64,000 bases of DNA from Chaetoceros tenuissimus (Eukaryota; Bacillariophyta; Thalassiosirophyceae; Chaetocerotales; Chaetocerotaceae). This document shows, piece by piece, positions 2,233 through 54,527 of this stretch; the first letter of the stretch is position 1; every line of letters starts with the position of its first letter. The position numbers and the translations under genes are program-made. The stretch is from contig BLLK01000047.1 in assembly GCA_021927905.1 (NCBI GenBank), positions 3,968,001 to 4,032,000 on the forward strand, given 5' to 3'. The notes under the pieces are model-generated. The model ran no database searches. It saw only the letters and a list, made by a program, of their open reading frames with translations, and was not told where the DNA came from.

Positions 2233-3279
2233 ATGAGAAATAGAATCTGGAAGGTACTGCTATCTTCTATTCCATCTTCTTCAATAGCTAGATCACATCC
2301 ATTTCTAAATAGGTCCATCTTGACAGCTTTCAGAGGCGGTGCTATTCAATCTTCTTCTACCAAGGCATTTTACAACTCGACTTCTTACAACATGAGCTCT
2401 TCTTCACCTTCTTCCAACGATTCAGCTGTGTACACCTATGGCGATAAGGAAGCATTTGCTCGTCTTGATCATACAGGTTATTCCATCGAATCAAATCCAG
2501 AATCATTTGCAGGTGGATGGCTTGCACATAGAGCCAACGTCAATGATTCAACATGTTGGGTGAAAGAGATTGCACCAAAGCTAACCAAGTACGATTATAC
2601 AAAAATGCCAATCGGAAGAGCACCTAAAATTCTAGTGCTATATGGATCATTGCGTCCAACTTCCTTTTCACGAAAACTAGCATATGAATTTGCACGTATT
2701 CTAGAAGAACTTGGTTGTGATGTACGTACCTACAATCCACATAATCTACCAGTACGTGATCCAGCTTTGGAAAATCATGTAAAGGTTCAAGAGATTCGTT
2801 CATTGACTCAATGGTCAGATGGACATGTTTGGGTAAGTCCAGAGATGCATGGACAAATTACTGGCGTATTCAAGAATCAGATTGATTGGATTCCGCTCAA
2901 TACTGGAAGTATTCGTCCTACACAAGGCAAAACTTGTTGTGTTGCACAAGTCAATGGTGGCTCGCAAAGTTTTAATGCTGTCAATACTTTGAGATTGTTG
3001 GCACGATGGATGAGAATGCCTTGTTGTACTAATCAGTCTAGTGTAGCAAAGGCTTGGCAAGAATTTGATGATGAGAATCGTATGAAAGAGAGTTCGTTCA
3101 GGGATCGTGTAGTGGATGTTGCGGAAGAATTTGCAAAGTTCACTGCAGTCATGGCGCCTGTGAGCGAGGAGTTGACCGATAGATATTCTGAGAGAAAAGA
3201 AAAAGAAAAGGAAGGGAGATTGTTGACTCAAGCCGAGAAAGAAGCGCAAAAGACCATTACAGAAGCGAGAAAGGGATAA
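2233..3279 (+). CDS. arsH: ArsH-type NADPH-dependent FMN reductase
   Basis: Predicted flavoprotein of the NADPH-dependent FMN reductase superfamily, ArsH branch. ArsH enzymes oxidise trivalent organoarsenicals and reduce quinones and azo compounds using NADPH and FMN. The flavodoxin-like core starts near residue 130, with the FMN phosphate loop [11 protein letters not shown] at about 137-147. Typical ArsH blocks follow: [20 protein letters not shown], then [15 protein letters not shown], then [11 protein letters not shown]. Bacterial ArsH is about 230-250 residues; this protein has 348. The extra roughly 120 N-terminal residues are Ser-rich and basic and could include an organelle presequence. 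A downstream Met at residue 54 is an alternative start. The last 30 residues are Lys/Glu-rich. No other arsenic genes are adjacent. Confidence 0.88.
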
Positions 3280-3890: not shown

Positions 3891-5183
3891 ATGAGTGCTG
3901 TAGATATGTCTAACTCAATACGTTCCCTTGACGATGCAGAACTAAATTCAACTTCCACAGCTGACTTTGTTTTTGTAGCAGCGGTCGAACCTAGTTTTGG
4001 CCTAACAGAGAGACAAAATATGACATGTGCGATTGCACAAACTACATCGTCCACCATTTCCCTCCTTGCAACAATCACAGTCATCATCATGATAAACAGA
4101 TCATATAAGAAGCTTTCATCCGTTTTTCATAGACTGCTATTGGGACTATGCATTGCTGACATTCTGTCAAGTAGTAGCCTTTCGTTGTCAACATATCCTA
4201 TTCCAGCAAATGAAAGTACAACAACAATTTGGAATGTAAATGGTACAATGGATACTTGCACAGCACAAGGCTTCTTTGTCTTTGTTGGGTTTCTTGCTGC
4301 TCAGCTCTACAATTGCTCTTTGTGTCTTTATTATCTGATAGTCATCAAATACAACAAGAAAGATGAATATATTCGAAGATACGTTGAGCCATTTCTTCAC
4401 GCTGTACCAATAGGAACTTCTCTCAGTGGTGGAATAATTATAGCTACAAAGCAAGCATTCAATCCTAATGCAAGTTTCTGTTGGATAGGATCCGATCCAC
4501 CTAGATGTTACGATGATAATGACAATACTGGATCATGCAGAGGAAAAGATGCGAAAATATTGTATCTCACTTTTGCCACAGTTCCATACATTGTACTACC
4601 TATTGTCATTCTGACTTCAATGGGATTAATGTATCATACTGCTCGTCAAAATGAAAAGAAAATGAGCGGCTATGGTATACATACGCTGAGATTGAAATCT
4701 ACTGTGAAAAGTGGTGATATAGCCGACGGACAAGAAAGGCAAGACAATAGTAATCGTCTTTGGAGCAAACTCAAGAATCTTTTTCAAAAGTCAGATCAAA
4801 ATTTGGATGCATCGACTTCATCTCGTTCCAATAAGTTGAACAAACAAAGTAGAGCCGTTCTACAAAAGGCGTCTGCATACTCATTAGCATACTTTGCTAC
4901 CTATTTCTTCCCTTTGATCATAACAATCAGAAAATCATTACAAATTAATGATGCTGGCTTTGTTTTGACAATGCTTTCTCGTATATTCTTTCCTCTTCAA
5001 GGATTCTTTAATTTCATGGTATTCATTTACCCTCGCATGTTGAGTGCCAAAAAAGAAAACGAGAAAGTATCTTGGTATAGAGCTTTTGTATGTGCATTGC
5101 AATCCAAAGGAGTGACCCCAAAAGGCGTAGGAAGGAAAAAAGGCCAGAAGCATAGCACTAAAGTCAAGTATTCCAGGTTGTAA
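3891..5183 (+). CDS. Seven-transmembrane receptor, cAMP-receptor-like (copy 1)
   Basis: 430 residues with seven hydrophobic segments in GPCR spacing: TM1 about 47-68 (ATITVIIMI), TM2 LLLGLCIADILS, TM3 LYNCSLCLYYLIVI, TM4 after YVEPFLHAVP, TM5 VPYIVLPIVILTSMGLMYH, TM6 after SRAVLQKASAYSLAYF, TM7 RIFFPLQGFFNFMVFIYPR. The TM7 'FPLQGFFN' signature and the loop pattern fit the class E/cAMP-receptor-like group rather than rhodopsin. A polar, Ser/Asn-rich third inner loop separates TM5 and TM6, and the tail is Lys-rich. The N-terminus has N-glycosylation sites. Single exon. Three further copies or pieces occur in the window (11699-12994, 18379-18682, 23082-25103). The ligand is unknown. Confidence 0.8.
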   Translation: MSAVDMSNSIRSLDDAELNSTSTADFVFVAAVEPSFGLTERQNMTCAIAQTTSSTISLLATITVIIMINRSYKKLSSVFHRLLLGLCIADILSSSSLSLSTYPIPANESTTTIWNVNGTMDTCTAQGFFVFVGFLAAQLYNCSLCLYYLIVIKYNKKDEYIRRYVEPFLHAVPIGTSLSGGIIIATKQAFNPNASFCWIGSDPPRCYDDNDNTGSCRGKDAKILYLTFATVPYIVLPIVILTSMGLMYHTARQNEKKMSGYGIHTLRLKSTVKSGDIADGQERQDNSNRLWSKLKNLFQKSDQNLDASTSSRSNKLNKQSRAVLQKASAYSLAYFATYFFPLIITIRKSLQINDAGFVLTMLSRIFFPLQGFFNFMVFIYPRMLSAKKENEKVSWYRAFVCALQSKGVTPKGVGRKKGQKHSTKVKYSRL

Positions 5184-6022: not shown

Positions 6023-9000
6023 TTAAAAGTTGACAAGAAAATTCCTTTGGCTCTTGCTAGCGTTTTGAAGCAAATGTCTACGGTTCGCTGACGCACGCAT
6101 TGAAAGACTCGACTTGGTATCTTCCTCTTCAATCTTACCCCAGACGTCAAGTTGCCATCTCTTCTTAAGACTCATGCTTGATAGCAAATGTTCTGCAGAG
6201 ATTGTAGACATTTGACCATGAAATCGAAGTAATTTGATAACAGTCTTGCGGCAAGCATTGGCCATGGAGGCATTGCCACAAATCATTACATGAGTATCTT
6301 TGCATAGTAACAACTGAACAACCTTTTCTGCATTGTCTTCCAACAAGTCTTGCACATACGTCTTTGGTTCATCACTTTCACGACTGTAGGCAATATGTGA
6401 AGTAATGACTCCCTCCTTGTCCCATTTCTCAATCTTATCCTTGTACAAGAACTCACCCTTTGTTCTACAACCAAAGAAGAAATGCCACTTTGCATACTGG
6501 GAATATGACGCAAATTCAGCTGCTCTTTCTTCCATAAATGACATGAATGGAGCTATTCCAGTTCCTCCTCCAATCAAAACTACTGGAAACGTTGGATCAC
6601 TTGGGCATCGGAAAGAACTCTTCACTACTCTTGCATCAAAGGAAGTACCAGGTGAAAAACTGCGGAGGTAGCTAGAGCAAGTTCCTTTCTCGATTTTGCC
6701 ATCACTTGTTTCTCGTTGGTATAGTCCTACAGTGATTGACAGTGTATTGGGTGACAGTAGATCTGAGCTAGATATGGAATAAAATCTATCCTTCATTGTT
6801 GGCATGAGGACTAATACATCTGCGATACCAATGACTGGCTTTTGATGCTTGGAATCAGTTGTGTGGATAGGTTTGCACAAGAGATCCTTGTATACCTCGA
6901 AAAAGTCAATAATGGTAGGATATTTATCCTTGAATGTTTGCACTGCCTCGTCGCTACCCTTTGCTGTCGCAGTATTACCTATCAAAAGATCAGAGTCTTC
7001 TTCGAATCTATGCAAGAGAGGATCTATGGAAGGATCAACAAAACTTGCTTGCATTGCTTCGTCAAGCTTTGTAGCTACCATTGTGAGCAAGTCAATAATA
7101 TATGTCGAAGTATGGAAAGAAAAATCTAACGAACGTTGAAGAGCCAAACGGAGAGTATTATTGGTCAATGCCTTTGACTGAAGTGGACTGGTCTCGCCAT
7201 TCTCTTTAGAAAGAACAGAAAACCTCTTTTCAATCAACCAAAATAGGCTTGGAAAGTTGCAGTCATACTTCTTTGCCTTTTCGGAATACGCGACTGCACT
7301 TTTTGAGTCGAACTTTAATTTGTCAAATTTAGTTTTGAGTGAGTTCCATTTCTGAATAGCCTCAGCTAGTTCAAGCTCAAAGCATTTACAAAATCGAATT
7401 ACTTTGGCCATTGAGTTCAAAGGTGACACTACAAGATGGTCCCCACTGGTGTAACTCACAGTCTCCTTACATTCCATCTCAATGTGCCTTACTGATGGAA
7501 CAAGCTTTGTGACGTCATTTTCTTGATCGGAGGCACGACACAGCTCAACATTCTTCGTGCACTTCATGTTATCTAGAGAAATCTTGACAGTATTGGAATC
7601 ATCTGGAAGCCATGTAATGGAGTATTCTAAAGGCGAAGTAGATACACCTTCTTCTTGATTCATAGTCTTGATTTCATTCACAAGTCTCTCAGGTAAGACT
7701 TGATACGAAACATAGGTTGACCATTCAAGAATTCCTTCTTGATTGCCTCTAGCGCTATCAACCTTTACTATGTCACACATTGACTGAGCCCCTACATCCA
7801 TCATCTTATACATAAGGTCTTGTCCAGCTTTACAGAAGTCAGGATAGAGACTCGATCCTAGAGCTAAGACCGCAAACTTCAGTCCTGTAAAGTCAAAATC
7901 ATGAACCTTCTCAAAGAATTCAACTGCATTGGATGGAGGAGAGCCTTGTCCAAACGTGGAACAGAGTATGAGCATGTACTGAAAGGAAGCACGGTTGTCG
8001 CGATCCATGGAAAGAACTTCGTTCAGTGTGCAAACAGTGGGAGAACACAGTTTCAATCGCTTTGTCAAGGATGAAGCACATTGTTCAGCAGTACCAGTTT
8101 CTGAACCATATGCAATGAGTACTTTCGGGACTTCAACCTTCTTGTTCCGAGTGACAATGAGCTGACTTTGAATTTGTTCTTTCACGAGAGTGTTTCTTTT
8201 CTTTTTGAAATCCTTTAATCTTGTTAGTTCAAATGGATCACAGCAGTAATCATACTGAGGGCATTTCTTGAAGTCTCTCATCTCGAGATGCCAGGTTGAA
8301 TTTGTACTTCCTAGCAGACCACCTATCCAACTCCACTGAGCCGGACATTCTCGGCCACTTTCTCTTTCTCTCTTGCAATGTGTGAGGAAAGACTCCCCAA
8401 CACCGACAGGATCTACTACAGTGAATTTTTCCTTCTCGAAAGAATGTAGAACAGCAGTCTCCAACTCTGCAGAAACCTTTACCTTCACAAGTTTGTCTTC
8501 AAGATTGATTCCAAATATAGGTGCAAGTAGCTTTGTCACATCATAGCGCTCAATGAGATTTCTAACTACCTCGGTTGATAAAAACCATCCATTGAACGGC
8601 GAACAAGGATATTTGATACCACCCAAGTTCATCATGAAGTTTGTAATAGCAGGGACAGCAGCCCATTTGAGTCCAAGATCTTTCATTGAAGGAAAGTCTG
8701 GATGCTCAATCTTAATCTCGTGCACGACTTCCTTCGGTAATTCATACACAAATGGATGCTCATTATTCGGAAACTTGAAAACAAGTGGTAACACATCAAA
8801 TGCGCTTTTCTTCTTTGGAGGCATCCACAACTCTCTTTCAATTAGCAGTTCTGTGATGTTCACATTAGCTGGATCGCCAAGAATTTGGCCAGTGCTTTTA
8901 TCGACATAACCAGCATACCGAACAAACTGGGAGCTCCAAAACCGCATACCAAAGATTTCACTGGACGATTGGGGTCTGAATACAGTCATCACAGATTGTA

Positions 9001-11339
9001 TGTTCGTACCACCAGTAGCAATCTTGAGATGCTCTACGCATTCATCAAAGACCTTGCGAGGATTATCACTGACGTGTCTACAATCTCGCACTTGCAAAGT
9101 ATTCCATGAGATACGACCGACACATTTACTACTGTTTCTCCAAGCCAGTCTCGCGCCGATCTCAAGCTCTTCAGGTGTATGAGTATAGGTCCCTGTTGCA
9201 GAGATCTCAGTTCTCACAGCGAAAAGGCGTTTTCTTTTAGTTTCATGAGTCCAGTTGAGCTCAGTTGCAATTTCATCTATGAAACGTTCAGCGTCTCTTT
9301 GCAGTTTATACTTTGCTTTGATTGGGTACAGTATACCAACCTCGAGGCATTCTTTCCATAGGTAGGAGAAGCATTCGGTCAAAATGTCATTTGAATCCAA
9401 AAGAGCAATATGTGCAACACTGACAACCTCCTTTCCCAGCAGCAATAATGCTTCGGCTGTCAGATTCAGATCATTCCATTTCGTACTGAATCTATTGAAA
9501 GTCTTTCGGATCTCAGATGACGGATCACTGGTTTCAGCAGGAAATTTGGTCATTAATAAAATCCTGCAAGGTAAATAAATGATTAGCGGTAGCACATGAA
9601 ATATCATGAAACATGTTTTCACGTTTCACTTACACTTCAAAGATATAGTATGACACTTCTTCAATATCGATATCGGAGAAATGATCTTCAATATCTTGAA
9701 TCTTTGCAAAGAGCTTACTGAATGCGGAAGTAACAACAACCCTGATCTTATCTTCGATACCTCCGTCTTCTATGGAAATGAAATCACGAAGATCCTCAAA
9801 CTCCTGCCTTCCAATATACATGGATCTACGTTCACAGAATTCAATCAATGGCAAAACCACCATTCCAGATATGAATTTTGCATGAGCTCCCATTGCATTT
9901 ATATCCTCTTTTTCATGATCAAGTGAGTATGGATTCTGATTCTTCATCGCCCAAAGGAAGGCATCACAAAGTAGAAGCCAATGTTCTGGCTTTACTCCAT
10001 AGCTGGATAGAGTCTCGCAGAACTCTTGGATGGTTGTGCATTCATTTTCATGAAAGAATAGGTCCGAGACTTCATTATCTGCATCTTTAGAACCTTTCAT
10101 TTCTCGATATGCTTCTCGTTGAACATACTGAGCATGAGGACAAAGACTCCTCACTACCATATCAAGCATAGAAACTAGAATAAGGCCCATATCTGACACT
10201 CTTTGTCCAAAGTGTAGCGCTAACGAATCCAAGTTGTTTTCTACCAGCCTTAACGCTTCATTTTCAAGCTTTCTTGTACTCGAGACACCATTATTTTCTG
10301 TCTCGAAAATATTTTGTACCCAGAATTGCTGCTCAAAGCCAGTTTGTGTCTCTTCATTTCTATTAGAAATATCTGTAGCGGCAACTAGGATTCTCCATCG
10401 TCCAACGAGAGCCTCTGCAAATTTTGATCGAAAAGCTAACACCTTGTTCCATGATTCCATAAGAAGTACAGCATCTTTCTTATCTTTAAGAAATACTTGG
10501 GTCAATGGTTCTTCGATGTTCAAGTTGTACTCTTCAAAGTCAACACCCCAGTATGATTTAAGTGTAACCTTTGCATCATGGTGCAAAAGAAGCTGCGAAG
10601 ACTCGCTAGACGCGACAGAAGAAGTATCCAATGAATAATCCAAGGAATGTGCCTGGTTGATAGGGATAGAGTCAACCGATGCTTTGTTAATATGGATAGA
10701 GTCACCCGATGCTTGGTTGATAGGGATAGAGTCACCCGACGCTTTGTTATTAGGGATAGAGTCACCCGACGCTTGGTTAATAGTGGTAGATTCAGCTAAA
10801 GTGTCGATGTTTGATGTACGTGAAGATTCAAGGGTTCTTGTTTGCCGCTTCTGATCATATCTCTTATTTTTGATATATTTTTGAAAAGAATACGCTTGGT
10901 TATTAATAGGGGTAGATTCAGCTAAAGTGTCGGTGCTTGATTTACGTGAAGATTCAAGGATTTTTGTTCGCCGCTTTTGATCATATCTCTTATTCTTGAT
11001 ATATTTTTGAAATGAATACGATCTACTCATATTTCTGATCGAACTGGAATGCTTCGAGGCATCTTTCTGACTCATTGTAAATTGTCCCCTTTTGTCATGA
11101 GGAATTTCCTTTTTATCTGCAGTACTGGCAGTTTCTTTACCACCAGAATAATTGGAGATGATGCGTCCATTTGCTTGGAATCTTTCACGAAAAGATAAGG
11201 AGGAAGATACAGAACAAGTATCAGCATCATGATCATCACTACCGCTCTCCTCTCTTTTTCCGTCAATGACGAATCCGACCTTTTGATTCTTGCTGGCATT
11301 TTCTGCTCTTGTCCTCGCTGCATATAAGTTAGGGGCCAT
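6023..11339 (-). CDS. NOS: Globin-like/nitric oxide synthase fusion (two exons)
   Basis: Two large frames join as one gene. Exon 1 is 11339-9634 and exon 2 is 9563-6023, with a 70-bp intron (GTAAGT...TTGCAG) whose removal keeps the frame and recreates a Val codon; the product is about 1748 residues. Residues 1-250 are low complexity with internal repeats. Residues 285-505 look globin-like, with a YGVKPEHW helix F/G signature. The NOS oxygenase domain is at about 660-1010: haem-ligand block RNSSKCVGR (Cys716) and substrate-binding block PFNGWFLSTEV (Glu900). A basic linker comes next, then an FMN flavodoxin domain (IAYGSETGTAEQ, about 1050-1055) and an FAD/NADPH reductase (RFYSISSSD, LIGGGTGIAPF, HVMICGNASM). 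Such an enzyme makes NO from arginine with NADPH. The pterin-contact loop is unusual (WHLEM instead of VFHQEM), and Leu444 occupies the expected proximal-His position in the globin part. The NOS call is firm; the globin call is weaker. Confidence 0.88.
9564..9633 (-). other. 70-bp intron joining globin-like and NOS exons
   Basis: On the minus strand the donor is GT|GTAAGTG and the acceptor TTTACCTTGCAG|G. Splicing removes the TAA that ends the upstream frame and enters the NOS frame at ...VILLMTKFPAE. Without splicing the NOS frame has a Met 23 codons upstream, but those codons lie inside the intron and look non-coding. Confidence 0.85.
10650..10769 (-). repeat. 30-bp coding minisatellite (four 10-aa units)
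   Basis: Four tandem 10-residue units of the form S(G/V)DSIPINQA encode residues 191-230 of the NOS fusion. Units differ at a few codons. Confidence 0.9.
10770..11018 (-). repeat. Duplicated ~41-aa segment in NOS N-terminus
   Basis: Two consecutive units, each starting YSFQKYIKNKRYDQKR and ending in TLAEST.I..QA (residues about 108-148 and 150-190). They are highly basic, then Ser/Thr-rich. Together with the adjacent minisatellite they make the linker a repeat-expanded region. Confidence 0.88.
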
Positions 11340-11698
11340 GTTATTTTTTATGTTTGAGCTATCTTATAATATGCAGATCTTTGACAGAATGCAATCGATG
11401 CTCATCTTTGTTAGTTAGAATAGAAAATTTGCAAAAAAGTGACAAAAACAGCAAAACCGTCAGTTAGCAGTAAAAAATTGAAAATGACTTATTATGACCA
11501 AATTAGAGAGACATTCTCGGGATTTTAGTCCTTTCTGTGATGAAAATAGCGGAGTACAAGTTATACGTACGTTTTTTGGTTTTGCGATGTGCTTCTATTC
11601 ATTCTTCACGTTCGGAAAGCACCTCTTCCTGCCTGTGTAACTTCTATTCATATCTGCCAAAAAGCATTTCCAAGAAAATAAAGCAAAATAAGTTCAAA
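11340..11698. promoter_or_regulatory. Divergent region between NOS fusion and 7TM receptor 2
   Basis: About 360 bp between the NOS start (minus strand) and the preferred receptor start at 11699. An in-frame upstream Met exists at 11537 for the receptor, but the 54 residues it would add resemble nothing in the paralogue. I see no distinct motif. Confidence 0.4.
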
Positions 11699-12994
11699 AT
11701 GTCGATTCGAGGGTTTGCCTCCAAGGCAGCAGCAGCTGAAAATGAACTGATCACGGCATCAAAGAAATTCACCATCTCACCAGCAGTTGTTGTCACCCGT
11801 ATCACTCAAACAGCTCGAAAATTTCCGACTAGATCATCCATCAAGACTTTGGCAATTGTTCAAACTGTTTCATCGTCAATATCTTTGATAGCAACAATTA
11901 CAGTCATTTGTATGATTGCTAGATCACATACGAAATTGTCATCGACATTCCATCGACTCTTGTTCGGTTTATGTATCTCAGATTTATTTTCAAGTCTAGG
12001 TGTGACCCTATCGACGATACCTATCCCATCCAAATACAATCAATCTATATGGTGGAATGCACAAGGGACGATAGAAACTTGTACAACACAAGGCCTCTTT
12101 ATATTTGTGGGCTTGAGGGCTGAACAGTTCTATAACTGTTCTTTGTGTCTTTATTACCTCTTTGTCATCAAATACAACAAGAAGGAAGATTACATTCGGA
12201 AATACGTCGAGCCTTGGTTGCATTCAGTTCCTATTTTTCTATCTTTACTTTTTGGAATTATCATTGCTGCAAAAGATTCTTTCAATCCAGGATTGACATT
12301 TTGTGGAGTTGGAGCTGACCCACCCGGTTGTATCAGTAACGATGCTTTGGAATGTACAAGAGGTCGTGATGCACAGACTATGTATAAGATATTTGCAGCA
12401 GTGCCGTATGTTGTACTTCCTTTTATTATTGTATTTACTATGGGACTTATGTATCATGCAGCACGACAAAATGAGAGAAAGATGAGTGGTTATGGCATAC
12501 ATACACTGAGATTGAGAGCTGATACTAATACTGATGACAATAATAATGCAGATGGAGGAGAAAGCGAAAAGAATTTATCGGAAAGTCGCATTTCAAAGAG
12601 ATTCAAAGAAATATTTTCTTTTCGATTCAGTCAAAGTACTCCTTCACAATCTAGATTATCCCGTTCCAATAAGTTGAACAAACAGAGTAAAATGATTGTA
12701 CAGAGGGCTCTTGCATATTCACTTGCATATCTATTTTCATACATTGTTCCTCTCATCATCAGTATAATGAAGTGGAGAGGAGAAACGGTTGGCTATGGAA
12801 TAACTTTGGTGTCTCGTATACTCTTTCCATTGCAAGGCTTCTTCAATTTCTTGGTTTTCATCTTTCCCAGAATTCTTAATGCAAGGAAGAGAAATGCCAA
12901 TCTGTCTTGGAGTCGAGCATTTGTCCACGCGCTCAAATCGAGAGGGCAAAGACCTAGAGGAACTGCAAGGAATAGATTATCTCAGCAAAACTAA
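11699..12994 (+). CDS. Seven-transmembrane receptor, cAMP-receptor-like (copy 2)
   Basis: 431 residues from the Met at 11699 (AAAATGTC context), matching the 430 residues of copy 1. It has the same seven segments, conserved through FHRLLFGLCISDLFSSLG (TM2), FYNCSLCLYYLFVIKYNKKE (TM3), VPYVVLPFIIVFTMGLMYHA (TM5) and RILFPLQGFFNFLVFIFPR (TM7). The inner loop 'SGYGIHTLRL' and the SRSNKLNKQS block before TM6 are shared by all copies. The C-terminal tail is basic. This copy is closest to the fragment at 18379-18682. Single exon; the ligand is unknown. Confidence 0.8.
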   Translation: MSIRGFASKAAAAENELITASKKFTISPAVVVTRITQTARKFPTRSSIKTLAIVQTVSSSISLIATITVICMIARSHTKLSSTFHRLLFGLCISDLFSSLGVTLSTIPIPSKYNQSIWWNAQGTIETCTTQGLFIFVGLRAEQFYNCSLCLYYLFVIKYNKKEDYIRKYVEPWLHSVPIFLSLLFGIIIAAKDSFNPGLTFCGVGADPPGCISNDALECTRGRDAQTMYKIFAAVPYVVLPFIIVFTMGLMYHAARQNERKMSGYGIHTLRLRADTNTDDNNNADGGESEKNLSESRISKRFKEIFSFRFSQSTPSQSRLSRSNKLNKQSKMIVQRALAYSLAYLFSYIVPLIISIMKWRGETVGYGITLVSRILFPLQGFFNFLVFIFPRILNARKRNANLSWSRAFVHALKSRGQRPRGTARNRLSQQN

Positions 12995-34727: not shown

Positions 34728-37700
34728 TTACTCCAACTCGTCAATTGCATCACCATAGACTTCATGGCATCGACCAAGGGCCCAAATTGGAAACACATTT
34801 CTGTATGCAGTATAAGTGATTCCACATGCTCGATTGAAAACACCCGAAATGCCTTCCTGTGGCCAATCGCCACATGGAAGTTGCCTCTTGATTAGGTATT
34901 GAATTCCGCGTTTGACTGCTTCGACATCATCGCATTTTGCTTCAGACAAAGCCAAAAGTGCCCACGCAGTACTGACTACTCCACTACCATCATCGCCGTA
35001 GCTATCCATACCACTCTCAGCATAGTCTTTGTCATAGCAAGAAGTAAAGTCCTCTCCCCAACCCCCATTGGCTCTCTGTTTTGAAAGAAGGAACTTGCAG
35101 CATTTCTTGATGGATGGAGAATCAGGAGTATCACCAGAACGGATAAGTCCTTCAATTCCAAACCAACAAGCATAGCAAAAGCAGCAAGCCCATGATCCGT
35201 ACCAAGATCCATCAGAACGTTGAATGCTCTCGAAGAAATAGCGTCCTAGTTGAATTGAATGCTTGACTTCTTCAGTACGGTGGTCAGGATAGATTTCGTG
35301 AAATGCACACAATGCAGTCAGGGAAGCCATGCTACATTCTGCGTAGGAGTAGTCAATCATGATATCACCAAAGACCTCGCTAGGATTAAGTTGTTCATAC
35401 CATCCGAATCCTCTATTGTTTTCGTAAGTAGCCCATCCGCCGTCTTCATTTTGCAATGTAAGGATAACATTTACAGCTTCTTCCAGTCTAGTTCTATTAA
35501 TGTCTAAAAGTTCACCCTTTTTGATGGCATCCATGACCTTTGTAGATTTCAATAGGACACAGACTCCCTTCAGTCCTTCTCCTGTACAATCACTAATAGG
35601 CCAACCATGCGCACTTGTTGAAAAAGGCCAACCTCCCTTTGACACGTGACGATAATATTTATTGCGATTCTCCACACTTTCGTACTCAAAAGCTGGGGAT
35701 GCCTGAGAAACTTCAGTAGACAGAATTTGTGTTCGTTCCAAATAAGCCCAGACCTTTTTGGACAAATCAGGGAACTCATCAAGCAACTCGCATTCGTAAA
35801 TTGCTTGAATTGCAAATGAGGTATCCCAACACTGACTTCCATTATATCCTTGCATCTTCATTCCATCTTCTGCAAGCCATAGATAATCTGGAATACGCAT
35901 CATATGATTCTGGATCGTATCATGTTCTACATTATTTCCAGCTGCATGAAATGCCGAAACCATATTCAAAACCTTGTTCACAGGCCCAATATCAATAAAG
36001 TTAGTTTGCAAATCTTCAGCAGCCATGTAATCTTTACAGAACGCCAATCCCTTCTTACGAATGTAGTTCTTGATGGGTTGAATCAAAGGAAACGATTCAT
36101 AAAAAGCCAAGAAATTTTGTGCAAACTCCATGAAAAAAGGCACTGGTGAATAATTATCCATGTCTGCCACCAAATGTCTGGTACTATTCCAATCAATAGA
36201 CTGATAATCGGAACAATACAATTCCTTTCTCAAATCTTGAATCAGAGTATCTGTCGCAGCATCTTGGTACACAAATCTCGCTCCGTACAAGTATCCCATT
36301 GGCAAATAGACCATACGACAATGACACCAAAGTCTTCCAGGATGAAATGGAAACCAGTTAGGCAACAACCACATTTCAGGAGGAACAGAATTATGCCCTT
36401 CCCACTCCATACATCCCAACAAACACAACCAAAATTTAGCCCAAGAACTAGTCATGACAGCACCACCTTCCTTTTGAATAAAAGTATGACCCTCCTTCAT
36501 ATGCGGCAAAGTAGCATCATCCCCCAAAAGCCTTAGTGAAACATAACAAAGTACAGTTCCAAACATGGTCGAAGGCGATTCAATATGTGTCCCCCATCCA
36601 CCATCAGCTTGTTGATGCACACGCAAATAATGCGCCATCAACTTAGCTTGATCCTCGTTAATCATTTTAGATGGTTTACCCATGACATACCATGCAATAA
36701 TCAAACCAGGCATTAAAAAATGCGGTCCACCATAATCACCCGCCCAATGTCCATCTTCTGTCTGAAGCATGCTATAAAAATGCACCGCCTTTTTCGCTGC
36801 TTCCTTGACAGTAGTCGCCTTTTCCGTAGAAGGAAGTGTACCACCGTTCAAAACATGATTGGTAATCATTTGTTCCCTGAACAAGATATCACCCGCATTA
36901 GGATTTTTGGCAGGGTTAAACCCTCCATCTGTCCTTCCAGCTCGTGCCATTTCTTGAATTTTATAAATGGTATTCCAATCCAATTTATTCTCAAATGAAT
37001 CTTTGGTCCAAATTTGTCGTCCGGCTGGTTCACCACTCATACCAATGGAAGTAGCTTTAATACCATTTTCACCATGTTCCTTACTTAAATTGAATGCTTG
37101 AAGAGTGGCTCTATGTGAATCTGTCGAAACTGCACATCGCCATTTGGTTCCTTCCTCGGCATTGAATAAAATTTGTGGATCGATTTGAGAAGTAATATTG
37201 TTCCATTCTGGTTTTCGTGGTATTTTATGTTCACGTGGTCCACCTGGATGTGACACTCCCAATGATAGACAATCCCAAATGAAAAAGAATAAAGCGTATA
37301 CCAATAAGGAAACAATGGCCAATGCATCTTGTTCAAGATGATTTTGGACAGATTTCAAAAGGACGGCATACAACATTATAACCAGACTCAAGTGAAATAA
37401 AACTCGAATGATTGGATTGAAACTTCCCAATGATGAATCATATCCCCACATTCCTGTAATAGTAGATGAGAATACCTGATTGAAGGTATAACTCCAGAGA
37501 CCTTTTCCCAATGGCCGTTTGCCTAGTTTTTGAATGGGAAAGGGAGTCAACATGTGTGCTGTCATGAGAGACACTAGGAAGAGTGTCAAGGATGCCTTGG
37601 CTGCCATTGAGGCAGAGAGATCCTCCAACATGTTGGATGGGTCAATTGAATGGAGATTGTAGCTTGTGGAATAAAGTGAAATGAAAATAGACAAACACAA
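34728..37700 (-). CDS. Oxidosqualene cyclase (sterol synthase) with membrane N-extension
   Basis: 990 residues, single exon. The protein cyclises 2,3-oxidosqualene to a tetracyclic sterol precursor. Family marks: repeated QW motifs (QTEDGHWAGD, QADGGWGTH, QNEDGGWATY, SDGSWYGSW, NGGWGED), the block WCHCRMVYLPMGYLYG, and the catalytic-acid motif, here DCTGE rather than the usual DCTAE (about residue 700; the proton-donating Asp is kept). Cyclases are normally about 730-760 residues. This one has about 150 extra N-terminal residues with three hydrophobic segments (SLTLFLVSLMTAHML, LSLVIMLYAVLL, VSLLVYALFFFIWDCL), suggesting extra membrane anchoring at the ER. Diatoms usually use the cycloartenol route, but I cannot fix the product from sequence. 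Divergent from the 8-vinyl reductase gene. Confidence 0.93.
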   Translation of the reverse strand: MCLSIFISLYSTSYNLHSIDPSNMLEDLSASMAAKASLTLFLVSLMTAHMLTPFPIQKLGKRPLGKGLWSYTFNQVFSSTITGMWGYDSSLGSFNPIIRVLFHLSLVIMLYAVLLKSVQNHLEQDALAIVSLLVYALFFFIWDCLSLGVSHPGGPREHKIPRKPEWNNITSQIDPQILFNAEEGTKWRCAVSTDSHRATLQAFNLSKEHGENGIKATSIGMSGEPAGRQIWTKDSFENKLDWNTIYKIQEMARAGRTDGGFNPAKNPNAGDILFREQMITNHVLNGGTLPSTEKATTVKEAAKKAVHFYSMLQTEDGHWAGDYGGPHFLMPGLIIAWYVMGKPSKMINEDQAKLMAHYLRVHQQADGGWGTHIESPSTMFGTVLCYVSLRLLGDDATLPHMKEGHTFIQKEGGAVMTSSWAKFWLCLLGCMEWEGHNSVPPEMWLLPNWFPFHPGRLWCHCRMVYLPMGYLYGARFVYQDAATDTLIQDLRKELYCSDYQSIDWNSTRHLVADMDNYSPVPFFMEFAQNFLAFYESFPLIQPIKNYIRKKGLAFCKDYMAAEDLQTNFIDIGPVNKVLNMVSAFHAAGNNVEHDTIQNHMMRIPDYLWLAEDGMKMQGYNGSQCWDTSFAIQAIYECELLDEFPDLSKKVWAYLERTQILSTEVSQASPAFEYESVENRNKYYRHVSKGGWPFSTSAHGWPISDCTGEGLKGVCVLLKSTKVMDAIKKGELLDINRTRLEEAVNVILTLQNEDGGWATYENNRGFGWYEQLNPSEVFGDIMIDYSYAECSMASLTALCAFHEIYPDHRTEEVKHSIQLGRYFFESIQRSDGSWYGSWACCFCYACWFGIEGLIRSGDTPDSPSIKKCCKFLLSKQRANGGWGEDFTSCYDKDYAESGMDSYGDDGSGVVSTAWALLALSEAKCDDVEAVKRGIQYLIKRQLPCGDWPQEGISGVFNRACGITYTAYRNVFPIWALGRCHEVYGDAIDELE

Positions 37701-51656: not shown

Positions 51657-54527
51657 CTAATAGTCCCCGTCTTCCCCATCTTCCCCATCGACACTTGAAT
51701 CACTATCGCTACAACAATCATCCTCATAATCGCTGTCCTCTTCCTCCTCATCATCATCATCACAAGGTAAGTCACTGAGAAGAAGATTGGTTTCTTCAAG
51801 CTCTTCTTCTTCTTCTTCGTTAGTGTTCTCATCTGCATCGTCATCTAACCTTTCAATTGCTTCCTCATTTGCAGCGTCGTTCTCGGCTTGAATATCCTCA
51901 GCCGATTGAGCCTGATTCCCCTGGTCATCTAGCTCAGCTTGAAGGCGCTTCTGAAGCTCCTCCTCCTCAATTTCCTCAACCTTTTGAGGATCATAGGTAA
52001 GTTTTCCCCTGTATTTTTCTTCCAATCTATTGTTCCCTTTGTCAAGAATTGTCAAGTCTAACACTTTCAACCAACGCTGGTGAACTTTCTCCAGTGTTTC
52101 ATAGGACATTGATCGCCACGCTGCTTCCACCTGGGTCCAGAGAACATCGGCATCATGGCGAAAGCCAGTCGTTAGCTTCTCTACCCAGCTCTGGATGGAG
52201 CACCAGATTCCAAGATCTAACTGGTTGTGACCAGGACTTCTTGGAGTCTGGTGGTGGAGCACAATGTTGTAATGTTCTTTCAAGAACTCACGGTAAGTTT
52301 CAATTGTATCTTTGGTCCCATGACCACCAGCATTATCAATCACTAACAAAATCTTAATTTCAATAGGCACCCAAAAGAAGTAATTGCGAATGGACATGCC
52401 GACTTCACGCATGACCTTCAGCATGAACTTGCTGTCACAGGTACAGTCCACTTCGACTTCCGTTCCTTTCGGAACAAAGATGGATAGGTCAAAATCATCA
52501 ATGGTAAGTTGCTTTTGCCTTCCTCCTCTTTCCTTCACTCTTCTTACAACTAACTCATCTTCATTTTCAATCGTCAAATCGACGGTTCCGTATTTCTTTC
52601 GGTTGAACTTTTTGTACGTGAGACAGAGCATATCTGCTTTCTCCTCGGTAAGTGCGTATCTTTGCTTGATGTTATGAAATAAATCACCAACTGACATTTT
52701 CTTGTCAAACAGGTTGCGCCAGTCGCCAGCCTTTAGTAAGTTGTTTGTTTTCGCATCGTTGACAAACTTCGTATGCTTTGAATTCTTTTTCGTCGTTCTC
52801 TTTTCGCTAACTCGCTTCAAATAAACTAACCCATTGCACCATTCGTCATGCACAGTCTCGCCATTTACTTTACCAAGTACTTGGCCAAGTTTCTTCGCAG
52901 CAAGGGCTGCAAGTCGCATCAAACCGAGTAAAGGAGGTGCAACGAAGGCCATTGCCATCACCTTCGGAACGAATCGCCGTGAACGGGTTGTCCTTTGCAC
53001 CTGCTCAAACTCTACACATTCTTCATCATCATCCTCCCAATCCTCCTTTGGTAAGTCCTTCACTTTTTTTCTTTTGCTATAAAAATAAAACCATTTCTCA
53101 TCAATGAAACAGTAGTATACTGGTTTTTCATAGGTTGCTTCTTTGATCCGTTTCTTCATGTCGATTGCCCAGCGAAGACGGCCCTTGATATGGTCAGCGG
53201 TAAGTTTAGGCTTTATCTTCATTTTTCTTGATTTGCCATTGTGTTTTAAAAACCAATCCCTAACATCATGTTTCTTGAGATTGATAGGAAACTGTATCTT
53301 TAATCTCTTCGCTTGGTCGTCATTGGCTACTAACTTTTTACTCATAATATAGCGTGTCATCACTTTTGCAATGTCTGTGAAGGTACTGTTATCGCCAATG
53401 GCGTAACAGGCATAGCGGAAAGCTTTCCGTAACGCTTTTGGTGAGTGCTTCATGATTTTTTCTGTTTTTGACATTTTCTTCTTACGAATCCGTTTCCTTC
53501 CAATTTTACCTGTATCAGAAGAGTTCCCTTGAAGGAAGTTGATTGTACCATCAATCATGAGGCGAGTTCGTTCTGGTGCTTTTGTTTGTGGAGGATCATA
53601 CCCTTTCAAGTAGTAAACATGCCGCATTGCAGCTTCGGTGATGCGGTCCCGCTCACCGTTCGATGAGTCCGTTCGGTAGCCCATCATTATTGCGGTAGAA
53701 ATTACAAGATGCCTGGTGTTATCATCTATATTGCGAGGAGTGGTAGAGGCAAGTTGTATCTCTTTCCCTTTATACATTCTTGGTTTACTTGTAAAATCTA
53801 ACTCCTGTATTTCAATAGCTGATGGATGACTTCCAAAAACAATTGATGGAGTGCATTTTGATATGTTTGTAATTGTTGGTGGCAGTGTAGCAGAATATCT
53901 TTGTGCAGTAGCAGTAGCAGTGGTATTATCAGCATTAGCATCAGCATCATTAGCATTAACAGCAGAGGTATCAGCAGCAGCGGAGGTAGCGGCGGAGGTA
54001 GCAGACGGAGGCGGTGTGATGACGCTGGATTCATTATTTGTTCGAGTACGTTTCAATCTTGAAGAAGCACGCACCGCAGTTGGCAGAGCATCAGCTTCTC
54101 TTTTCCGTAGTATACTTCTTGAATAATCAAATAAATAATTCTCATCAGCCCTAACTCTGACTTTTACAGTTTTGACCCTGCATTTCTTGCCTGTAACTTT
54201 GCCAGTTCTTGTCTCATTCTGTATTGATGCTTTGAATCCAGATGGATGGGCATTCACTAGCTTATCGAGTTCTGGTATATCTAAAGCAAAGACTCTTTCT
54301 CCATTTTGTGTGCGAGTTTTAAGTACACCAAGCTCCGTCAATAGAGCGTCGACCTGTTTTTGTGTCACTCCTCTTTCCAATTTGGCCTGTTTACTTTGCT
54401 TGAGTAGCTTTTCAAATGGCTCCTCTGTTACATCTTCCTTTGCTGGGCGTATCAGGAACGTTTTATCATCTGGAAGGAGATTGAAGAGACCTACAAGTAT
54501 TTCAAGAGCCTCTGTGGCCTCACTCAT
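51657..54527 (-). CDS. Mariner-like transposase, DD39D, 956 aa
   Basis: Cut-and-paste DDE transposase. Catalytic acidic residues: Asp476 in CFIDEKWFY, Asp731 in LVIDNAGGHG and Asp771 in HNQLDLGIWCSIQS. Exactly 39 residues separate the second and third, the hallmark of plant-type mariner-like elements, and DLG..CSIQS is their typical third-Asp context. The protein is much longer than usual. An N-terminal domain of about 300 residues includes an Ala/Thr/Asn-rich low-complexity stretch. The first and second Asp are 255 residues apart, implying a large insertion. The C-terminus is an extremely acidic tail (Asp/Glu runs, residues about 870-956). Basic KRIRKKK (about 345) may be a nuclear signal. 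Confidence 0.92.
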   Translation of the reverse strand: MSEATEALEILVGLFNLLPDDKTFLIRPAKEDVTEEPFEKLLKQSKQAKLERGVTQKQVDALLTELGVLKTRTQNGERVFALDIPELDKLVNAHPSGFKASIQNETRTGKVTGKKCRVKTVKVRVRADENYLFDYSRSILRKREADALPTAVRASSRLKRTRTNNESSVITPPPSATSAATSAAADTSAVNANDADANADNTTATATAQRYSATLPPTITNISKCTPSIVFGSHPSAIEIQELDFTSKPRMYKGKEIQLASTTPRNIDDNTRHLVISTAIMMGYRTDSSNGERDRITEAAMRHVYYLKGYDPPQTKAPERTRLMIDGTINFLQGNSSDTGKIGRKRIRKKKMSKTEKIMKHSPKALRKAFRYACYAIGDNSTFTDIAKVMTRYIMSKKLVANDDQAKRLKIQFPINLKKHDVRDWFLKHNGKSRKMKIKPKLTADHIKGRLRWAIDMKKRIKEATYEKPVYYCFIDEKWFYFYSKRKKVKDLPKEDWEDDDEECVEFEQVQRTTRSRRFVPKVMAMAFVAPPLLGLMRLAALAAKKLGQVLGKVNGETVHDEWCNGLVYLKRVSEKRTTKKNSKHTKFVNDAKTNNLLKAGDWRNLFDKKMSVGDLFHNIKQRYALTEEKADMLCLTYKKFNRKKYGTVDLTIENEDELVVRRVKERGGRQKQLTIDDFDLSIFVPKGTEVEVDCTCDSKFMLKVMREVGMSIRNYFFWVPIEIKILLVIDNAGGHGTKDTIETYREFLKEHYNIVLHHQTPRSPGHNQLDLGIWCSIQSWVEKLTTGFRHDADVLWTQVEAAWRSMSYETLEKVHQRWLKVLDLTILDKGNNRLEEKYRGKLTYDPQKVEEIEEEELQKRLQAELDDQGNQAQSAEDIQAENDAANEEAIERLDDDADENTNEEEEEELEETNLLLSDLPCDDDDEEEEDSDYEDDCCSDSDSSVDGEDGEDGDY

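Follow-up and report, generated by a model that had tools for sequence, protein, structure and literature searches.

A Synechococcus-type nitric oxide synthase, present as four genes in the diatom Chaetoceros tenuissimus, whose second globin-like module has probably lost its dioxygenase heme

Introduction

The nitric oxide synthase (NOS) of Synechococcus sp. PCC 7335 (SyNOS; PDB entries 9q05 and 9q06) is the closest described relative of the gene treated here, and its descriptions assign a separate task to each of its parts: the oxygenase makes nitric oxide (NO), a pseudoglobin clamps the dimer, a heme globin acts as a dioxygenase, a C2 domain serves as a calcium switch, and a C-terminal tail locks the reductase (PMC6104048, PMC12922734). 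We describe a NOS gene on the minus strand of a 64,000-nucleotide stretch of a Chaetoceros tenuissimus contig (BLLK01000047.1, positions 3,968,001 to 4,032,000; here called the window). The genome comprises 41,027,912 bases in 68 contigs, and the G+C content of the window is 36.5 to 43.2% in 2-kb steps. It is probable, in our judgment, that the gene encodes a SyNOS-type diatom NOS, one of four copies, whose globin-like modules have been kept as a scaffold under purifying selection and whose dioxygenase heme has been lost.

Globin-NOS of diatoms has been reported before and has been in print since 2015 (PMC4648414, PMC6104048, PMC7554344, PMC8728061), and green algae with a C-terminal globin have been reported as well (PMC8728061), so that the novelty of such a fusion among eukaryotes, as implied by a sequence-only reading of the window made before the present analysis, is not supported. 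According to the 2015 report, some SyNOS-like diatom transcripts come without a globin domain (PMC4648414), and three NOS have been reported in Chaetoceros socialis (PMC9999646). In the literature searched, with supplements and most subscription journals outside its range, we met no description of a diatom globin-NOS that has lost its heme residues; as far as these searches show, this loss and the set of four genes are new.

Results

Pfam matched a complete NOS oxygenase and reductase on exon 2 of the window gene (Table 1), and Cys716 aligned with Cys539 of SyNOS, which is described as the heme ligand (PMC6104048). The features expected of a NOS family member, i.e., an oxygenase with a heme-thiolate Cys and a fused reductase that binds flavin mononucleotide (FMN) and flavin adenine dinucleotide (FAD)/nicotinamide adenine dinucleotide phosphate (NADPH), were present. 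SyNOS was the best PDB match of exon 1, of the oxygenase, and of exon 2, and with the oxygenase it ranked ahead of the best mammalian NOS (260 bits, among the best 60 of 81 matches). Both the completeness of the NOS and its kinship with the Synechococcus globin-NOS had been proposed in the sequence-only reading, and both held up. Within the arginine site, whose residues are described for SyNOS together with the role of Ile695 (PMC6104048), Trp895 and Glu900 were kept, and the arginine-contacting Tyr716 of SyNOS was replaced by Phe896 in all four paralogs. The position of Ile695 was likewise occupied by Ile. Besides, the genome held one PTPS match, which is compatible with a pterin route.

Four NO_synthase matches were found in the genome, i.e., the window gene and three paralogs (L001, L002, and L003). 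L002 (C34:3949000-3957000) lies on the same contig and strand, about 24 kb from the window gene, L003 is located elsewhere on that contig, and L001 is located on contig C16. Exon 1 of the window gene was 72% identical to that of L002, 52% to that of L001, and 51% to that of L003, and the corresponding values for exon 2 were 92%, 74%, and 76%. In the N-terminal part, the window gene and L002 were just 45% identical. Judged from sequence, L002 and the window gene appear to have arisen by local duplication not long ago, their tail being quick to change. A scan of genome contigs for relatives returned two loci, none of them cyanobacterial, and a scan of viral contigs returned none. A plasmid search gave 236 records, none of which spanned 80% of the query, and one Nostoc plasmid NOS was annotated as oxygenase only.

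The first globin-like module stands ahead of the oxygenase, as the pseudoglobin does in SyNOS. When exon 1 was searched against the PDB up to an E value of 10, SyNOS was the sole match (residues 372-495 versus SyNOS residues 213-325; E = 7.7e-4), and a profile of the four paralogs matched the SyNOS pseudoglobin region with an E value of 0.0037. In SyNOS, residues 179-339 form an eight-helical pseudoglobin, which is described as lacking heme binding and as linking globin and oxygenase within the dimer, at the position that the zinc site takes up in animal NOS (PMC12922734). The sequence-only reading had called residues 285-505 globin-like on the strength of the string YGVKPEHW. This designation holds in part: the module matches the SyNOS pseudoglobin, but it belongs to a type reported to be heme-free, Pfam assigned no family and hence no globin to exon 1 at E values up to 1, and Leu or Phe occupies the presumptive place of the proximal His (residue 444). 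That place was set by eye with the help of the pattern HxxYG(V/I), which we read in several of nine reference globins. The putative globin fold of the first module rests on its kinship to the SyNOS pseudoglobin.

The second globin-like module lies where SyNOS has its heme globin (residues 340-473, with Phe380 at CD1 and His422 at F8; PMC6104048, PMC12922734). We compared the four paralogs with nine reference globins, i.e., SyNOS, seven globins from genomes in the phylum of genome G001, and one from the same Chaetoceros genome. The aligned F8 position was Trp in all four paralogs versus His in all nine reference globins, and the aligned B10 position was Phe in all four versus Tyr in eight of the nine; at CD1, Phe was shared by the four paralogs and eight reference globins. 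The odd reference globin at both B10 and CD1 was that of the same genome, which was aligned from one exon only. The B10 helix position has a role in NO dioxygenases, and we take the position of Phe540 to be B10. Independently of any alignment, residues 554-619 contained no His in any of the four paralogs. On this remote alignment, of the two marks of a SyNOS-type heme globin, CD1 Phe and F8 His, just the Phe is present, with Trp at F8, and of those of an NO dioxygenase, F8 His and B10 Tyr, neither is present (Trp598 and Phe540). Because the proximal His, and B10 Tyr as well, have been lost, the second module is probably heme-free and would carry out no NO dioxygenation. The sequence-only reading had suggested that NO synthesis is coupled to NO dioxygenation or oxygen sensing; neither coupling finds support, because Pfam gave no globin match and Trp stands in all four paralogs where the His of a heme globin is expected.

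The globin ancestry of the second module is likely but unproved, and its globin fold is suggested by position and by modest statistics. When a trimmed stretch was aligned globally to the SyNOS heme globin, the score was reached by 4 of 3,000 shuffles for the window gene, 16 for L002, 56 for L001, and 10 for L003, and eight true globins gave 0 to 3 of 3,000 in the same test. The trimmed score was reached by none of 2,094 windows of other open reading frames (ORFs) in the 64,000-nucleotide stretch and by none of 1,320 other windows of the same protein. HMMER, run against SyNOS residues 330-473 as a single target, returned the expected register (E = 0.034), and the best local match of the second module in hhalign fell in the same register, with a probability below 1%. 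An early hydropathy comparison (r = 0.51; 0 of 1,288 windows) was set aside as biased, the optimization having been applied to the observed alignment only.

The ratios of nonsynonymous to synonymous substitution (dN/dS) over the six paralog pairs, which are rough values, synonymous divergence (dS) exceeding 1 in most older pairs and being saturated in several, were 0.07 to 0.21 for the pseudoglobin part, 0.11 to 0.36 for the second module, and 0.47 to 0.62 for the N terminus; those of the oxygenase (five pairs with a value), the linker plus flavodoxin, and the reductase were 0.05 to 0.09, 0.07 to 0.25, and 0.08 to 0.20, respectively. Read in this way, the globin-like modules appear to be maintained by purifying selection.

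Several results weigh against a globin-derived, heme-free second module, the roughness of the dN/dS values among them. The trimmed boundaries were chosen after the HMMER alignment had been seen, and the better shuffle figures depend on them; without trimming, the global alignment to SyNOS fell short of significance, with its score reached by 51 (window gene), 297 (L001), and 103 (L003) of 1,000 shuffles. Pfam found no globin in the second module, whereas the SyNOS control gave 2.2e-8, and a PDB profile search with this module up to an E value of 10 returned neither a globin nor SyNOS. With hhalign, the first and the second module each remained below 1% against the nine globins, against eight of them, and against SyNOS alone. 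AlphaFold2, run on the protein's own sequence without an alignment, gave mean predicted local distance difference test (pLDDT) values of 35.8 and 41.0, which are unusable. In a hydropathy test, 25 of 1,988 shuffles and 60 of 1,320 windows reached the score, although the test agrees in direction; the best of those windows lies in the pseudoglobin part. Furthermore, the lack of a His does not prove the absence of heme, for which other ligands exist.

This last point leads to a working SyNOS-like globin-NOS, in which the second module would bind heme via another ligand and turn part of the NO into nitrate. The module order of SyNOS, the CD1 Phe kept in all four paralogs, and the purifying selection on the module all agree with it, and a remote alignment could have misplaced the proximal residue. 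We nevertheless consider it unlikely, as the His-free stretch of residues 554-619 is common to the four paralogs and is joined by the Trp at F8, the Phe at B10, and the lack of a Pfam globin match. It is similarly doubtful that the second module is an unrelated helical linker in place of the SyNOS heme globin, so that the pseudoglobin alone would be shared. That view draws on the similarity being undetectable by Pfam, PDB profile search, and hhalign and on the nonsignificant untrimmed alignment, but it has to contend with a segment of similar length at the same position between two matched domains, with the window and shuffle tests, and with the register found by single-target HMMER and again by the best local match of hhalign.

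The gene itself was read from two minus-strand ORFs in the window's list, at 6023-9625 and 9630-11363. Spliced, they give a product of 1,748 residues, from the ATG at 11339 to the stop codon at 6025-6023; unspliced, the upstream frame meets a stop directly after ...YYIFEV. All three paralogs showed the same two-frame layout and a GTAAGT...AG intron at the identical codon and phase (89 bp in L001, 69 bp in L002, and 91 bp in L003), which makes this arrangement more than chance. Alternative in-frame GT/AG joins are possible in three of the four genes, and the join used here is the sole one common to all. In a phmmer alignment of 310 residues (SyNOS 274-571; E = 2.8e-29), which was colinear from pseudoglobin through heme globin to oxygenase, SyNOS spanned the exon junction without a gap there, the score coming mostly from the oxygenase part. 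That the two frames join in frame through a canonical 70-bp intron, as the sequence-only reading had it, is confirmed at the level of sequence, and the transcript would be spliced accordingly in vivo. Two adjacent genes, i.e., one for a globin-like protein that stops after ...YYIFEV and another for a NOS with its own start at the ATG of MTKF (9553), would suit the stop directly past the splice site and the in-frame ATG just behind the acceptor, but they are very improbable in view of an intron that keeps its codon and phase in all four paralogs despite lengths of 69 to 91 bp, of the gapless passage of SyNOS across the join, and of an intergenic gap that would be just about 75 bp.

Upstream of the modules, the N terminus contained the repeats that had been announced for it (Table 1). 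No C2 domain was detected in exon 1 by Pfam (E ≤ 1) or, outside residues 372-495, by the PDB search, the sensitivity of Pfam to the SyNOS C2 domain being unchecked. The most basic 18-mer, a block of the FQKYIKKK type, was common to the paralogs. Within the disordered N terminus (about 10605-11040, minus strand), this block reads FQKYIKNKRY in the window gene and FQKYIKKKRY, FKRYIKKKKS, and FQRYVKKKKS in the paralogs; followed by a stretch resembling SR.(S/T).(I/T)D, it recurs in all four proteins and twice in that of the window gene. As a substitute for C2, a calmodulin-binding linker was considered and rejected: the linker between oxygenase and flavodoxin is 42 residues long in all four paralogs, but it is basic and amphipathic in some of them only, and both net charge (7, 4, 0, and 3) and moment vary.

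Table 1. Features of the NOS gene, in positions of the window
Feature	Position	Strand	Basis or remark
Exon 1	9634..11339	-	Residues 1-568 plus 2 bases of codon 569; low-complexity N terminus, pseudoglobin-like module, first half of second globin-like module; same layout in the three other paralogs
Intron	9564..9633	-	70 bp, GTAAGT...TTGCAG, phase 2; position common to L001, L002, and L003
Exon 2, including stop codon	6023..9563	-	Second half of second globin-like module, NOS oxygenase, flavodoxin, FAD/NADPH reductase, C-terminal tail
Low-complexity N terminus, residues 1-245	10605..11339	-	Stands where SyNOS has its C2 domain; evolves fast; exon 1 without Pfam family
Tandem repeats, 30 bp x 4.7 and 126 bp x 1.9	10654..11020	-	Inside N terminus
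Pseudoglobin-like module, residues 283-505	9825..10493	-	Match to SyNOS 213-325; outer limits approximate
LCPH, residues 399-402	10134..10145	-	Invariant in all four paralogs; also in SyNOS (240-243)
Residue 444 at presumptive proximal His place	10008..10010	-	Leu (Leu in L002, Phe in L001 and L003); placed by eye from YGV motif
YGVKPEHW, residues 447-454	9978..10001	-	Signature of the sequence-only reading; SyNOS pseudoglobin counterpart IGMQPQHW
Second module, exon 1 part, residues 506 to 568/569	9634..9824	-	Phe554 at CD1 kept; Phe540 at B10 instead of Tyr
Second module, exon 2 part, to about residue 648	9326..9563	-	SyNOS alignment
Trp598 at F8 (proximal His) place of SyNOS heme globin	9476..9478	-	SyNOS alignment
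NOS oxygenase domain (NO_synthase, PF02898), residues 655-1012	8234..9307	-	Pfam E = 6.2e-108; best PDB match SyNOS, 362 bits
Cys716, oxygenase heme thiolate ligand	9122..9124	-	Aligned with SyNOS Cys539
Flavodoxin (FMN) domain, residues 1052-1180	7730..8116	-	Flavodoxin_1, Pfam E = 7.9e-22
FAD/NADPH reductase, top-scoring FAD and NAD stretches, residues 1484-1675	6245..6820	-	FAD_binding_1, 8e-16; NAD_binding_1, 1.6e-16
C-terminal tail, residues 1705-1748	6026..6157	-	Ends in ASKSQRNFL(V/I)NF in all four paralogs; paralog comparison

The NOS gene is flanked on the plus strand by two similar receptor-like ORFs (3891-5183 and 11537-12994), with weak matches below the cutoff to 7tm_1 (1.2e-5) and GPR_Gpa2_C (8.4e-4 and 2.8e-4), and an NADPH-dependent FMN reductase (2233-3279, plus strand; PF03358, 1.2e-29) adjoins it. 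Farther away, on the minus strand, the window holds a 990-residue open frame that matches both the N and the C domain of squalene-hopene cyclase (34731-37700; 1.4e-52 and 2e-51) and a long open frame with a weak match, also below the cutoff, to a transposase helix-turn-helix (51660-54527; PF01498, 0.0013).

Discussion

In the SyNOS-type enzyme with a heme-free second module that we favor, NO would most likely be made from arginine as is usual for NOS, along a path predicted to lead from NADPH through FAD and FMN to the heme of the oxygenase. As in SyNOS, the pseudoglobin would most likely clamp the oxygenase dimer without binding heme, at the site that zinc takes in animal NOS. The second module, with its globin-like helical pattern kept and its proximal His and B10 Tyr lost, may now serve as a scaffold or as a docking surface for the reductase, and the regulatory C2 domain would have been replaced by a fast-evolving low-complexity tail. 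Such an enzyme would be a source of NO that lacks a removal step of its own: NO would be made but probably not also destroyed by the same enzyme. Its removal could pass to separate globins; the genome contains one Globin match, which has the F8 His in place, and one truncated globin match.

A bolder combination may be put forward, which we regard as rather improbable as a whole. In this diatom lineage, the half of a cyanobacterial-type synthase-dioxygenase that destroys NO would have been shut off, and its globin would have been retained as another pseudoglobin without heme, a self-limiting enzyme becoming a pure NO source that then came to occupy four genes. Besides, the invariant Cys400-Pro-His402 would form a metal or thiol clamp that holds the dimer and takes over the role of the zinc site of animal NOS; its SyNOS counterparts, Cys241 and His243, stand just before an insertion (residues 245-263) that would overlie that site.

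To our knowledge, among well-studied NOS, SyNOS alone both produces NO and destroys it. If our reading is true, a relative that has the modules but not the dioxygenase heme would indicate that globin modules are worth keeping for structure alone, and the two activities would have been separated by nature's own experiment. Algal genes labeled globin-NOS should then have their heme residues checked before they are read as NO-to-nitrate enzymes. Since NO is reported to act in diatoms as a signal of stress and of cell death (PMC9999646), it matters for their physiology whether a diatom NOS limits its own NO.

Among described systems, the globin-NOS of Pseudo-nitzschia multistriata and Skeletonema costatum and other centric diatom NOS transcripts carry an N-terminal globin label and are described as cyanobacterial-like (PMC4648414, PMC8728061). 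The NOS-globin proteins of green algae (Klebsormidium nitens KnNOS2 and others) are likewise single algal proteins, but their globin is C-terminal and is reported to have both heme histidines (PMC8728061). With animal NOS, the window gene product shares the oxygenase-reductase chain and the heme Cys; it differs in the oxygenase score (about 260 bits versus 362 for SyNOS), in the globin modules, which animal NOS are without, and in a linker that does not support a calmodulin site. The likeness to SyNOS extends to the whole order of pseudoglobin, globin position, oxygenase, flavodoxin, FAD/NADPH reductase, and C-terminal tail, to the LCPH motif, and to the Ile at the Ile695 position. The window gene product departs from SyNOS in the residues that stand, on alignment, in place of the heme globin's proximal His and of its B10 Tyr, in the C2 domain, of which none was found, in Phe896 versus the arginine-contacting Tyr716, in the intron of its gene, and in a different, well-kept C-terminal tail.

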